From the NCBI GenBank assembly GCA_009780415.1, contig WRAC01000031.1:1-34295 (forward strand): a stretch of 34,295 nucleotides of DNA, given 5' to 3'. Below, in pieces: positions 3 through 34,044 of this stretch. Within the stretch, counting starts at the first letter, position 1; every line of letters starts with the position of its first letter. A model generated the notes under the pieces. That model was given only the letters and a program-made list of their open reading frames with translations, was not told the DNA's origin and did not search any database. The position numbers were made by a program, and so were the translations under genes. This DNA is from Defluviitaleaceae bacterium. Lineage in GTDB: Bacteria; Bacillota; Clostridia; Lachnospirales; WRAX01.

Positions 3-1598
3 CGGCCGGCTTTGGAAATAGAGTTTCCCCTCGGTGAAGGCACGGAAGATATTTGCACGGCGGAAGAGGCGGGCGGCATCAGGGTCTCCCATACGGATGC
101 CGGGCAGAAATGGACATGCGTTAAAACAATCGGGGATTCAAAGCTCGTGGTTACGCTGTCCCCGGAAGGACCGCCGGAATACCCGATAAACGCCGAATTT
201 GCATTCGGCGGCATTACCACCGGAAATCCGCAGGGTTCGGCTACTGTGAGCTTCTACATCACGAATTTCAGGGAAATCGCAAACACCAGTGCCTTCCGGC
301 TTATGCACAAGAGGTATCCGGTATTGATAAAGGAATTCAAGGCCGACCCGAACCCGATTGTGCTGGGCGGTAAAACAAATCTGTCGTGGGAAGTTGAAAA
401 CGCCCAGCAGGGCATCGATGCGATACATATAATCGGTTTAGGCAGGGTGCTGCCGAAGGAGACAAGGGAAGTGCAAATCGACCACCCTGTGACCTTCACT
501 ATGGCGGCAAAAGATTGCAAGGACGGCACAGTGTTCGGTGACTGCGCGGTAGGGCTGGTGAAGCCGAGCATTATAAGCTTTGAAGCGGAGCCAAAATATT
601 TTTACGGGGACGATAAAATTACGCTGACATGGGGGACGGCATCCGCGTCCAGTGTTAGCTTCTCACCCTCCGTACCGGGTACGCCGGACATAAACGGAAG
701 CGCGGAGGTAAGCCCGGGTGAAAGCACGGCCTACACAATCACGGCGTCCGGTTTCGACGGCGTGAACCTCGCGTCCGCGCAAGACTTAGTTAAGGTATGG
801 AAAACACCGTGGAAAAGCGAGGGGAACGCGGATCTGGCGTCCGACACTTCCACGGCCTTTACCCGGCGGCTGTACGGGTACGGAAACAAGCTTATCCATT
901 ATACCAACGGCAAACTGTATGAAAGCGCGGACGGGGTGAACTTCGCCGCGATTGAGAAATCAGAGCTGCCGAATGGAGTCAGCGGCAAAAATGCTACAAC
1001 TATGTTGTGGGGGGATGATTTTTATGTATTGGGGGGTGAGGCTGCCGATTTCAGCTCCGCCGCACGTTTCAACCTGAAAGAGCTTAAATGGGAGACGGAG
1101 ACATCGTACTTGAAGTCCAGCAGTTTGGGGCAAAGCGCATGGGGTTATTTGACGGACGCGTATCATGCCGCGCTTTTCTCAAACGGGCGCGTTTCCGTCG
1201 CAAGCAGAGACTCCATGGGTGTATGGAGCGCTGAATATTCTTCAAGACTAAACGGCGCCGACGCAATAGAAATAGCTGTGTTCAGGCGTAACCTGTATCT
1301 GGCGGCGCGTATTCCCGGCAGGAATGTTATCAGCATAAGTTACATGTATCAGGACGATTGGGTGGAATGCGGCAACATCCGGCATAATGGAAGCGAATGG
1401 TTTTCATTTATCTGCAATGTTAACGCCATGTATGTCATAAACGGCCAGGGCATATGGGGCGACAACGGCTGGAAGATGATAAACCCCCTCTTCCCCGGCG
1501 ATACTGTGAGCGAACCCCCGCTTACCGGTATCTTTAATAACAGGCTGTATATCATTAAGGACGGAAAGGCCGTATGGTCATACGATTTATTAAGATAA
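3..1598 (+). CDS. Ig-like/propeller repeat protein, 5' end cut by the window
   Basis: The reading frame is open to the left edge, so the true start lies outside; a TTG at 12 is only the first possible start inside the window. Two consecutive Ig-like units are visible, each opening with the pattern F-x-A-x-P followed by a glycine and a strand ending in L-S/T-W (KEFKADPNPIVLGG...LSW at about residues 109-130, then ISFEAEPKYFYG...LTW at about 190-210). The C-terminal half has short repeated strands such as GNKLIHYTNGKLYES and FNNRLYIIKDGKAVWSY, which resemble kelch-like or other beta-propeller blades. I see no catalytic motif. The stop lies 15 bp before the next gene, which has a GGAGAG ribosome site, so the two are probably one operon and may work together on or outside the cell surface. 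The repeat-fold reading is inferred from pattern only. Confidence 0.6.
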   Translation, partial: RPALEIEFPLGEGTEDICTAEEAGGIRVSHTDAGQKWTCVKTIGDSKLVVTLSPEGPPEYPINAEFAFGGITTGNPQGSATVSFYITNFREIANTSAFRLMHKRYPVLIKEFKADPNPIVLGGKTNLSWEVENAQQGIDAIHIIGLGRVLPKETREVQIDHPVTFTMAAKDCKDGTVFGDCAVGLVKPSIISFEAEPKYFYGDDKITLTWGTASASSVSFSPSVPGTPDINGSAEVSPGESTAYTITASGFDGVNLASAQDLVKVWKTPWKSEGNADLASDTSTAFTRRLYGYGNKLIHYTNGKLYESADGVNFAAIEKSELPNGVSGKNATTMLWGDDFYVLGGEAADFSSAARFNLKELKWETETSYLKSSSLGQSAWGYLTDAYHAALFSNGRVSVASRDSMGVWSAEYSSRLNGADAIEIAVFRRNLYLAARIPGRNVISISYMYQDDWVECGNIRHNGSEWFSFICNVNAMYVINGQGIWGDNGWKMINPLFPGDTVSEPPLTGIFNNRLYIIKDGKAVWSYDLLR

Positions 1599-1613: not shown

Positions 1614-4067
1614 ATGGGAAAAATTAACATCGAGATAGGCGAAAGGAACTGGCTGATTGTCTCAGACCCGGAGGATCTTACCGATTACGGCAGGATCACG
1701 CTGTACAGCGGCGGGTTCATTGAGATACGCATACCCTGCGAGTTTAACGTGGACGAACTTGTGTACGAGGACGAGGACGGATTGGGCCGCGACAGCAACA
1801 AATGGAAGCATGACATCGTAATAACCGGAAACAGAGGGGAGAATTCGTCCAAGGGCGAAAACGGCAAGGACGGCGGTAATGCCCCGGACGTAAAGCTGAC
1901 AATCGGTAAATTAAACGATTCCATCAAGATATTGAATACCGGCGGGCGGGGCGGTGACGGCGGCGACGGCGCAGACGGGCAAATGGGCGGCAACGGCGGC
2001 AACGGGGCTTCCGGTATAGGCCCCGGCGACGGCGGCGACGGCGGTGACGGCGGCAGGGGGCAAACGGGCGGCAATGGCGGCGACGGCGGCAATGGCGGTA
2101 AAGTGGCTGTGAATTACAAAGCGGATGAAGGCGTCGGTATAACAGGTACGGTGTCCAGCGCCCCCGGCGGTATTAAAGGTATAGGCGGCAGGGGTGGAAA
2201 AGGCGGAAAAGGCGGCAGGGGCGGAATCGGTGAAACCATACATGGCGCGGACGGGAAAACGGGCAGAAACGGGCCAGCCGGCAGGGACGGACAGAACGGA
2301 ACCGCGGGATCCCCCGGCAGCATTGCAATCTACAAGAATAATGTGCTGGAATCTTCAGCAACGGAAGCCGCGGTCTCACCCCTGGCCGCTTCCATTAAAT
2401 CAGGAATTACACGCGTGGATTATTCCGATCCTGAGGTACGGGAGGCAACGATAGCGGAATTCGGGGGCATTGAAAATTACAGGGAGAATTATCCGGCCCT
2501 GTATGAATCCTTTGCCAACACATGCGAGCTGCATCGGCTCTTGCGGAATGAGGAGCGGTTCGGCGATACCGCGGAAAATGTCCTGATGTTCTGTTCTATG
2601 TCGGATTTGAAGCAGGGAAACAATGCGAATTCGGGGTACATTACTACTAACCTCTCATATGGCCTGGAATACAGCCCGCTCAGACAGGACGGGAGGTCGG
2701 TAACAGGCGCCAGATTGGAAGGTTCGCTGATCCAGGTGAAAACGGGCCGGGAGCTGGACGCCCTTGATATACGCGTTACGGCGGATGAATTGCTTTTACC
2801 GAACACGCACATGTTTGAGGCGTTTTTGGAAGATCTGGCGTCCCATCGTGACCAATACGTCAGGGTAGAAATGAGCATGACGGTATATTACATAGATAAG
2901 GACAAGAAACGTACGCAGGATAAATATAACCTCGACAATAACGACGCGGCAATGTTTTATAAAATAGGTAAATCCGCCAGTAATGTCCAGGAGATCATCG
3001 TCTGCGCGCCGAAGGCCAAGACCGACATGAAGAAGAACCCGATAATTGTGGGATATGCCCGGAATTTTGATACCACCGATATCACTTATCCCAACAATTG
3101 GATATCGGGAAATACGATGAAAATCATGATGCCTATAAGCGGGAAAGTAACGTTTGCCCATGACATTGAGCTGGAGGGATGTTATGCGGAACATTATAAA
3201 GACGCAAAAATCGAGTACAGGCCGCATCTGTACCTATCCAATGACACACAGACCATTGTGGCAAGGCATTGCCGGCGCCAAGCCGATTTCCCCGGGTATT
3301 TTTGCGTAAATCAAGCACAAAAGAATATCGTCGATTTCACATTTAATGATGACTGGAATACGTCAACCGAATACAATAAATACATTTACGATTCTAAGCT
3401 GAAGGTAGGCTTCTACTGCCATCTGGCGTTGGAGGGTGGGTATGTCGATACCCACGCGGACGGGAAGCGGACAGCCACCGGGGAGGTCTTTTTAGCCTCG
3501 TATTCCAGCACAAAGGATACTACGGCTGAATATTACATTTCCAAACAGAAGCGTACTTGCAGCATACCGGAGATCCAGATTATATGGGGCTGCTTCGGGC
3601 GGGATACCCTGCTGCGTATGGAGGATGGAAGCAGGAAATGGATACAGGATGTGAAAACAGGCGACCGCGTCGCTGTAGAGGGCGGCTACGCCGCCATTAC
3701 CGGGACATCAATAGGATTTGAGCAAACGCTGATACGCGTTGAAACGGAGGACGGCAAGGCGCTGTGCCTTACAGCCGGGCATCCCGTGCTTACCGAACGG
3801 GGTTATGTTCGCGCACGTGTCTTGAAACCCGGCGACGCGCTGAAGACGGCATGCGGCGGCAGCACACGCGTACTAAGCGCGGCCGAAGCGGCGTACGAAG
3901 ATAATGTGTACAACGTTGAACTGGACACGGATAAGGCATTGGACGCCAACGGACTGCTTGCCGGCGACATAACCGCCCAGAACGAACGTCTGCCGGACGA
4001 TCCGGCTATTGAGGAAGCCGCCGCAGACATGCAATTGATTGAGGAACTTGAAAAGCTTGCGCGTTAG
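1614..4067 (+). CDS. Glycine-rich collagen-like protein with C-terminal Hint domain
   Basis: This 817-residue protein has three visible parts. Residues 1-75 are a beta-rich head without a signal peptide. Residues about 75-240 are a low-complexity GGxGGxGG / G-x-y region in which Gly alternates with Asp, Asn and Lys. Residues about 245-650 are a globular region I do not recognise. The C-terminus from C660 is a Hint domain: block A (CFGRDTLLRMEDGS, then W-I-Q-D-V-K-T-G-D), a TxxH-type block B (LTAGHPVLT), the following ARVLKPGD, and the late block VYNVELDTDKALDANG. The usual terminal His-Asn is replaced by Ala-Gly-Asp, and about 35 acidic residues follow. Hint domains self-process by an N-S acyl shift at the first Cys; without the Asn, cleavage or ester formation is likelier than splicing. 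Start chosen from GGAGAG at 1601-1606, 7 bp before the ATG. Cargo and export route are unknown. Confidence 0.72.
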   Translation: MGKINIEIGERNWLIVSDPEDLTDYGRITLYSGGFIEIRIPCEFNVDELVYEDEDGLGRDSNKWKHDIVITGNRGENSSKGENGKDGGNAPDVKLTIGKLNDSIKILNTGGRGGDGGDGADGQMGGNGGNGASGIGPGDGGDGGDGGRGQTGGNGGDGGNGGKVAVNYKADEGVGITGTVSSAPGGIKGIGGRGGKGGKGGRGGIGETIHGADGKTGRNGPAGRDGQNGTAGSPGSIAIYKNNVLESSATEAAVSPLAASIKSGITRVDYSDPEVREATIAEFGGIENYRENYPALYESFANTCELHRLLRNEERFGDTAENVLMFCSMSDLKQGNNANSGYITTNLSYGLEYSPLRQDGRSVTGARLEGSLIQVKTGRELDALDIRVTADELLLPNTHMFEAFLEDLASHRDQYVRVEMSMTVYYIDKDKKRTQDKYNLDNNDAAMFYKIGKSASNVQEIIVCAPKAKTDMKKNPIIVGYARNFDTTDITYPNNWISGNTMKIMMPISGKVTFAHDIELEGCYAEHYKDAKIEYRPHLYLSNDTQTIVARHCRRQADFPGYFCVNQAQKNIVDFTFNDDWNTSTEYNKYIYDSKLKVGFYCHLALEGGYVDTHADGKRTATGEVFLASYSSTKDTTAEYYISKQKRTCSIPEIQIIWGCFGRDTLLRMEDGSRKWIQDVKTGDRVAVEGGYAAITGTSIGFEQTLIRVETEDGKALCLTAGHPVLTERGYVRARVLKPGDALKTACGGSTRVLSAAEAAYEDNVYNVELDTDKALDANGLLAGDITAQNERLPDDPAIEEAAADMQLIEELEKLAR
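1938..2330 (+). repeat. Coding low-complexity glycine repeat (GGN-GGC arrays)
   Basis: The DNA consists of repeated glycine codons (mostly GGC) alternating with GAC, AAC, AGG and AAA codons. It encodes the glycine-rich segment of the Hint protein in two blocks, about 1938-2100 and 2163-2330, separated by a non-repetitive beta segment. The repetition produces long spurious proline- and alanine-rich frames on the opposite strand. Such arrays are prone to length change by slippage in units of three. Confidence 0.8.
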
Positions 4068-4077
4068 CGCGTTCATA

Positions 4078-4117
4078 AAACCGGCTGCCTAAAGTATAAT
4101 GGGAGCCGGTTTTTTTA
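4078..4117 (+). terminator. Intrinsic terminator after the Hint protein gene
   Basis: AAACCGGCT (4078-4086) pairs perfectly with AGCCGGTTT (4104-4112). Two further C-G pairs follow after a G-G mismatch, the loop is AT-rich, and a run of T continues to 4116. It starts 11 bp after the stop codon and ends the first operon. Confidence 0.9.
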
Positions 4118-33105: not shown

Positions 33106-33144
33106 TAATGGTATAAAAACCTACGAATGAAAGCGAGGGCTATT

Positions 33145-33854
33145 ATGCCTACATGTAAAAAGTGTAACTCGGAACGAACCAAAAAGAATGGTATTGTATC
33201 AAATAAACAACGCTTTAAGTGTAAATATTGTGGTTGCAATTTCCGTCTTGGTGATAATCGAACTAATGATAAAGTAGCGGCAAAGAAAGCATTGTGTATA
33301 TTGCTTTATGTTATGGCAAAAGGCTCATACCGTATGCTGGGGCGCATCTTGAAAATTGACCACACACTAGTATATCGTTGGATTCGAGCGTTTGGCGAAA
33401 GCTTACCCGAACCCGAAGTATCAGGCGAAATCAAAGAGATAGAATTTGACGAAATGTGGCATTTTTTAATTTCAAAAAAACTTTGGGTTATCAAAGCCAT
33501 TGACCGTAGTACAGAGAGAACCGTGGCCTGGGTGCTCGGCGGTCGTGATTCTACAACATTCCAACGACTTTACGACAAAGTAAAGCATCCTGAAAACTGT
33601 ACCTTCTACACAACTGGGACGCCTCTGCGGATGTATTGCCACGCGAACGGCATAAAATCGGCAAAAAGCATACAGTTGACATTAAACACGATAACAGTAA
33701 CACTCGTCATCATTAAGGACGTTTTAAACGAAAAACGAAGGTCGTTTCGAAGAAGGATTTTATGATTGATTTATCATTACGTATTTGGCATTACGTTACT
33801 ACCACCAACCTTTTTGTCCGGCTTCAAGAGATAGCATTATCTATATTTGAGTAA
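33145..33854 (+). pseudogene. IS1-family transposase, frameshifted and stopped
   Basis: An intact front part encodes a zinc ribbon (C-x2-C near CKKCNSERTKKNG, then C-x2-C in CKYCGCNF), a helix-turn-helix (YRMLGRILKIDHTLVYRWIR) and the DDE region EIEFDEMWHFL, then WVIKAIDRSTERTVAWVLGG. The frame is lost at about 33610-33612, where the expected FYTD-W reads FYTT-G. In the next frame the sequence continues as WDASADVLPRERHKIGKKHT and then DIKHDNSNTRHH, meets a TAA at 33714-33716 in place of a Leu, and resumes GRFKRKTKVVSKKDFMIDLS to a natural stop at 33852-33854. Start chosen at 33145 after GAGGG. Confidence 0.85.
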
Positions 33855-33943: not shown

Positions 33944-33972
33944 CTCTGATAATATATTTTGATGTTTCTTAG

Positions 33973-34044
33973 CTCCCCAAGTAGGATTTGAACCTACGAC
34001 CCACCGGTTAACAGCCGGTTGCTCTGCCGCTGAGCTATTGAGGA
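33973..34044 (-). tRNA. tRNA-Asn (anticodon GTT)
   Basis: The full cloverleaf is visible on the minus strand: acceptor TCCTCAA/TTGGGGA (one G-T pair), D arm GCTC...GAGC, anticodon stem ACCGG/CCGGT with loop CTGTTAA, and T arm GTAGG TTCAAAT CCTAC. It is 72 nt long with discriminator G. The 3' CCA is not encoded (CT follows). It lies about 50 bp after the 23S 3' end. Confidence 0.97.

Follow-up and report, generated by a model that had tools for sequence, protein, structure and literature searches.

What is the glycine-rich protein encoded near the start of this contig made of, and what might the intein-like domain at its C terminus do to it? The window, by which we mean the whole stretch of DNA analyzed (34,295 nucleotides), carries an 817-amino-acid open reading frame at 1614-4067 on the plus strand, as do all parts of the protein located below. 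The reading frame has no internal stops and was confirmed as real, its start being fixed by a good-quality AGGAG Shine-Dalgarno sequence at 1600-1604. It consists of a Gly-rich N-terminal part, a family body, and a C-terminal Hint domain, and it represents gene G of the operon described below, here fused with gene F. The C-terminal domain is a probable self-cutting domain related to that of animal Hedgehog proteins.

The body and Hint domain as the conserved unit

The body (residues ~263-655, 2400-3578), which the first-pass annotation had listed as unrecognized, belongs to a family present in several phyla, and all 14 aligned members have P466 and R483. A tblastn search of plasmids returned 10 records, among which two from Azospirillum matched part of the body too. 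Proteins from Azospirillum, Tistrella, Pseudoalteromonas, and Embleya align with the window protein over body and Hint domain. From a genome scan, 80 loci were kept, with high-scoring matches over both parts in L037, in L038 (Lachnospiraceae), L039 (Reinekea), L040 (Flavobacteriales), L041, L043, and L044 (Azospirillum), and L042 (Methylocystaceae); the remainder were far weaker, and most matched in the Hint part alone. Among 348 genomes of the family to which L038 belongs, 14 matched at an E value of 1e-8, and nine, including L038's own, scored at least 98 bits; the eight new genomes at that score were examined with their flanks. A profile search at class level matched 23 of 391 genomes, and beyond the own genome the matches began only at approximately profile position 361, essentially the Hint part. 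Full body plus Hint was found in one of 321 genomes of the class of Reinekea, that being the Reinekea genome at the center of the search, and a single-protein scan matched one of 96 genomes, the own genome. No close relatives were found in genome contigs or viral contigs by single-protein scans, nor any relatives by viral scans with two alignments. The distribution of the family is patchy. The member set used here comprises 22 distinct proteins, five of which are closely similar Azospirillum proteins, and its 14- and 11-member alignments share three sequences. On sequence comparison, the conserved unit is the ~400-amino-acid body with its Hint domain, not the shaft.

The Hint domain spans residues 660-789 (3591-3980), as delimited by profile and alignments. 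When the window protein was searched as a single sequence, its Pfam matches (Hint_2, Hint, Vint, and PT-HINT) all fell below the curated cutoffs; the best was to Hint_2 (E value of 5e-5, 24.1 bits against a cutoff of 28.4), while Vint (PF14623) gave 18 bits against a cutoff of 27, with the L037 relative reaching 29. A profile of eight relatives compared with solved structures matched 8w20 (1.8e-9), the bacterial intein-like (BIL) domain 2lwy (8e-7), and mini-inteins (~3e-6), bearing out the Hint assignment made in the first-pass annotation.

The putative cleavage site is W658-G659-C660 (3585-3593). All 11 Bacillota sequences have WGC, and in them a conserved hydrophobic strand and the W-G pair precede the Cys; across the whole family, the residue before the nucleophile Cys is G, S, or H (14-member alignment), so cleavage may vary. 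Block B, with its TxxH motif, was located from alignments at T720-A-G-H723 (3771-3782). Lack of conservation of C660 and this block among homologues had been set beforehand as the refuting outcome, and it did not occur: C660, H723, and P724 proved invariant in all 14 aligned members and all 11 Bacillota sequences (22 distinct in all), with T or S at position 720 in every aligned member (by eye). Where an intein has its C-terminal His-Asn, the window protein has A778-N-G-LLA-G784-D785-ITA-Q789 (3945-3980), a replacement that had been described correctly and that extends to the whole family, as A-x-G-xxx-G-[DE]-xxx-Q is present in 22 of 22 members (C-x-G in one). In a control set of 117 other Hint proteins, drawn from 105 loci, one has this motif and 88 have an HN/HD-like motif. 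The only nonmember with GDxxxQ (L015, 1228-3081) is of a different architecture, with the Hint domain in its N-terminal half and a long stretch after it. The C-terminal tail (residues 790-817, 3981-4064) is helical in a poor model; the approximately 35 acidic residues once claimed for this end amount to 9 D/E (by eye) among the 28 residues that follow Gln789.

The subfamily has probably been glimpsed before. Buerglin reported in 2008 an unnamed set of bacterial proteins whose C-terminal Hint-like domain differs from that of inteins, Hog, and BIL; they have a weakly conserved upstream region with two conserved Cys and, in some cases, signal peptides, the members including Reinekea sp. MED297, Myxococcus MXAN_6253, Photorhabdus plu1731, and others (PMC2362128). 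Compared by description, the body-plus-Hint family is probably this group and its relatives, the two having the genus Reinekea in common. The Reinekea relative (L039) resembles the group in its signal-like N terminus and the two Cys in a body motif, whereas the window protein has neither, and its fused Gly-rich shaft and operon context have no counterpart in the description of that group. By eye, the two body Cys are present in the Reinekea, Pseudoalteromonas, and Flavobacteriales members and absent from the window, L037, and L038 proteins; the Azospirillum, Methylocystaceae, and Embleya members lack both the signal and the pair of Cys, and the Tistrella member has one Cys.

An optional glycine-rich shaft

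Residues 1-70 (1614-1823) form an N-terminal part with predicted beta strands in a low-confidence model, and the Gly-rich shaft follows at residues 71-240 (1824-2333). With 64 Gly and 5 Pro in 170 residues, the shaft is of the GGx type: GGxGG occurs 12 times, a count attained in 4 of 5000 shuffles, and the longest Gly-X-Y run is 27 residues, attained in 21 of 5000. No Pfam Collagen match was found in the window protein. The protein had been termed collagen-like, and a collagen shaft was rejected given the GGx rather than Gly-X-Y repeat, the short Gly-X-Y run, the scarcity of proline, and the lack of a Pfam Collagen match. Scl-type bacterial collagen-like proteins have a Gly-rich extended region in common with the window protein but differ from it in these same features and in their signal peptide. 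An AlphaFold model of residues 1-259, made with one relative, has a pLDDT of 57 and shows strands alternating with extended Gly stretches. Its best PDB match is 7jjv, a springtail antifreeze polyproline-II bundle, at an E value of 0.025 for this low-confidence model, while 2pne and 3bog, snow flea antifreeze protein among them, gave E values above 1; the modeled shaft weakly resembles an antifreeze polyglycine-II-type bundle. A viral fold search with the same model returned no match at E < 0.001.

Residues 1-259 share 37% identity with a separate Gly-rich gene, F, of L037, where F is a gene of its own, with a 17-base overlap between it and the Hint gene, G. In the window protein, F and G form one frame, fused at a junction homologous to the L037 F/G boundary. 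A second F-G fusion was identified in L154, which has an extra, separate F gene as well, and in L155 and L159 F adjoins G as a separate gene. Of the 22 relatives, 2 carry the Gly-rich part as a fusion and 3 as a neighboring gene; in the stretches fetched for the remaining 17, a search with a profile built from two shaft sequences did not detect it. As the shaft may be fused, separate, or undetected, it is therefore an optional accessory. The first-pass annotation had cast it as the thing being attached, a role that finds no support here: the constant part before the Hint domain is the ~400-amino-acid body. In L154 (11739-19160), a 2473-amino-acid protein with an RHS_repeat match adjoins the Gly-rich/Hint fusion and the extra Gly-rich gene.

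The operon around gene G

Gene G is the last gene of a DUF6603-B-C-D-Ig/Kelch-(Gly-rich)-Hint operon, that is, A-B-C-D-E-(F)-G. This order was found in five genomes, namely, the own genome, L037/L151, L038/L152 (no F), L155, and L159, the stretches of the last two ending inside gene A. In the window, gene E (3-1598, plus strand), truncated at its 5' end where the contig begins, encodes Ig-like and Kelch-like parts and lies 15 bases before gene G. The operon is closed by a terminator-like hairpin at 4079-4116 (AACCGGCT / AGCCGGTT, 17-base loop, then T7), which was spotted by eye and is absent from the list of the terminator scanner, which permits loops of ≤8. Gene D of the own genome was identified at the end of contig C27 (E value of 1.2e-149), preceded by C, B, and the DUF6603 gene A (Pfam E value of 1.1e-137; 1.4e-120 for the DUF6603 protein of L038), with A-B-C-D spacings of -4, -17, and -26. 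The operon is split between C27 and C31, the window's contig, a join that is inferred, with no sequence overlap, from the gene order of relatives and the truncation of D and E at the contig ends. GC content is 53 to 54% in the operon pieces versus 47 to 48% in the surroundings, in line with acquisition by transfer. A gene for a metallo-beta-lactamase-fold protein with HxHxDH adjoins A in three of the three genomes with that side in hand, divergently in the own genome; because Pfam made no call in the own genome, the fold was assigned from the motif and from the homology of the three proteins.

Gene E has no significant Pfam family, and its proteins are divergent, the window's matching those of L155, L159, L038, and L037 at E values of 1e-10, 3e-8, 6e-5, and 0.02, respectively. 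Its Ig-like part matched PHROG virion structural proteins (1e-13), with weak cyanophage matches by tblastn; these were read as a shared domain, and a phage link was set aside. No phage match was found for gene D, and a phage tail fiber was rejected, since neither the body nor gene D turned up a phage relative. PADLOC gave nothing at an E value of 0.01 for six operon proteins, NCBIfam had no match for eight proteins, and profiles of B, D, E, and F gave nothing at E < 0.1 against solved structures.

The Pfam entry for DUF6603 (PF20248) gives no described function. Other DUF6603 loci, on Paenibacillus and Streptomyces plasmids and in a Flavobacteriales genome, resemble the operon in carrying A-(BC)-D; unlike it, they have no adjoining Hint gene in the stretches examined, and the Flavobacteriales Hint gene is on a different contig. 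DUF6603 was found in 2 of 391 genomes of the class and in none of 14 controls. Gene D was found in 2 of 196 related genomes, and the G1224 copy shares its contig number and coordinates with the G796 copy, these being probably the same genome. On a Paenibacillus polymyxa plasmid (L125, 1-24276), genes for phage baseplate V and DUF4280 proteins precede the DUF6603 locus by ~9 kb.

The first-pass annotation had stressed a missing export signal and suggested a nonclassical route. The absence is real in gene G: there is no N-terminal hydrophobic segment, and the best 13-residue Kyte-Doolittle mean within residues 1-45 is 1.00, compared with 1.9 to 2.65 for the three of 14 aligned members that have signal-like N termini by this measure (Reinekea, Flavobacteriales, and Pseudoalteromonas). 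The operon partners A to D have no signal-like N terminus either (by eye), so the absence seems to be a feature of the whole system, and no gene for secretion was recognized beside gene G. Toward the other end of the window, a short transposase-like ORF is present at 33127-33765, which resembles an IS1-type element, with a tRNA-Asn nearby at 33972-34044.

Proposed processing of the gene G product and other settings of Hint genes

Because all 22 members have another motif in place of the terminal His-Asn, intein-type splicing is unlikely, and with Gly659-Cys660, T720, and H723 present and the Asn step missing, N-terminal cleavage or transfer would be the economical reading. The expectation that a Cys-type Hint domain of this kind would act by N-terminal cleavage or acyl transfer instead of splicing is thus supported, as far as sequence can support it. 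We lean, with some reserve, toward gene G encoding a structural or adaptor subunit with a nonsplicing C-terminal Hint autoprocessing domain. G659-C660 would undergo an N-to-S acyl shift, helped by T720 and H723, and the thioester would be resolved by water or another nucleophile because Gly-Asp-xxx-Gln replaces His-Asn and there is no C-extein. Shaft and body (residues 1-659) would be released with a new or modified C-terminal Gly, a 158-residue Hint piece would be set free, and the product would work with the DUF6603 protein, B, C, D, and the Ig/Kelch protein in a large cytoplasm-made assembly. Cleavage by the domain, the destination of the product, and the formation of one assembly by the operon products are the inferred parts of this proposal.

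It is also conceivable, if unlikely, that transfer proper takes place as in Hedgehog, where the thioester formed at the Gly-Cys junction is resolved by a sterol (PMC5874633). The thioester would then be passed to a specific nucleophile (a lipid, a cell-wall amine, or a partner protein), and body and shaft would become covalently anchored. Like the Hedgehog Hog/Hint domain, the window's domain is C-terminal, with a Gly-Cys junction, a TxxH block, and no splicing Asn; moreover, the tail after the Hint domain has a shared pattern in many members (by eye), and the metallo-beta-lactamase-fold gene adjoins the operon wherever that side is in hand. However, the N-terminal partner is a different one, Pfam Hint (PF01079) stays below its cutoff here, and no sterol- or adduct-recognition region of Hedgehog's size was recognized in the 28-residue tail and poor model; the hydrolase-fold gene, for its part, is tied to the Hint domain by position alone. 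Equally doubtful is that the Hint fold has been kept as a noncatalytic assembly or interaction domain. The terminal motif is altered in all members, the residue before the Cys differs across phyla, and the AlphaFold model of body plus Hint from eight sequences, with a pLDDT of 39, lends no support to a competent active site, but scaffold use alone does not demand an invariant Cys and His, with T or S at position 720, across several phyla.

Two further arrangements were rejected. That a pretoxin Hint domain frees a C-terminal toxin, as in polymorphic toxins, is very improbable: a weak PT-HINT match (E value of 0.019, below the cutoff) and the occurrence of RHS proteins among other Hint matches point that way, yet only 28 residues come after the family motif in the window protein and 37 in its relatives from Azospirillum and Methylocystaceae, and no toxin domain or immunity gene was recognized after it. 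A true intein or BIL domain that splices is scarcely credible, since the fold likeness by profile to inteins and to the BIL structure is accompanied in 22 of 22 members by the loss of the C-terminal His-Asn and there is no C-extein downstream.

Body-plus-Hint genes were also found in other settings. A second Hint operon is present in Tistrella (L117, 7389-29721) and in L157 (816-12000), which is from L038's family; after the Hint gene come genes for an Fn3-like protein, a ~1200-residue protein, a metallo-beta-lactamase-like protein, and a LysM-type protein. Between the two genomes, the E values are 4e-23 (Fn3-like, a label read from the sequence, the L157 protein having no Pfam match), 4e-125 (~1200-residue protein), 2e-36 (LysM-type), and, for the metallo-beta-lactamase-like protein, 2e-4 by BLAST and 2e-6 by phmmer. 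In L156, L158, and L160, a long protein follows the Hint gene; the two of these proteins that were scanned both contain Laminin_G_3 domains. Thus, the Hint module accompanies several kinds of large proteins. A bolder reading, which we regard as quite improbable, is that of an undescribed machine or fiber with a DUF6603 plus B/C/D core and interchangeable Ig/Kelch, lectin-like, Fn3-like, and polyglycine parts, in which the thioester made by a Hedgehog-type Hint domain would anchor the structural subunit covalently or be resolved by the metallo-beta-lactamase-fold enzyme.

If true, Hedgehog-type autoprocessing would extend to a bacterial multiprotein locus in scattered genomes of several phyla, and DUF6603 gains a conserved genomic context. 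The invariant WGC site, the nearly family-unique terminal motif, and the natural variants with the shaft fused, separate, or absent offer handles for tests. Literature searches found no paper on DUF6603, on two members by locus tag, or on LodA with a Hint domain, and in the literature on Hint with collagen-like proteins or BIL none apparently describes the architecture of the window protein; within the reach of these searches, neither the operon nor the terminal motif has been described.

A body-plus-Hint gene was observed close to genes for a LodA/GoxA-type oxidase and a ferritin-like protein in Azospirillum (L002, 7449-13550), where a tryptophan-halogenase-like protein is encoded as well, and in Methylocystaceae (L042, 3942-9950, labels by eye), a linkage that might reflect maturation of a quinone enzyme. 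In a Rhodospirillaceae locus (L077, 153-5901), two signal-peptide-like Hint proteins alternate with TadE/TadG-like genes (labels by eye).
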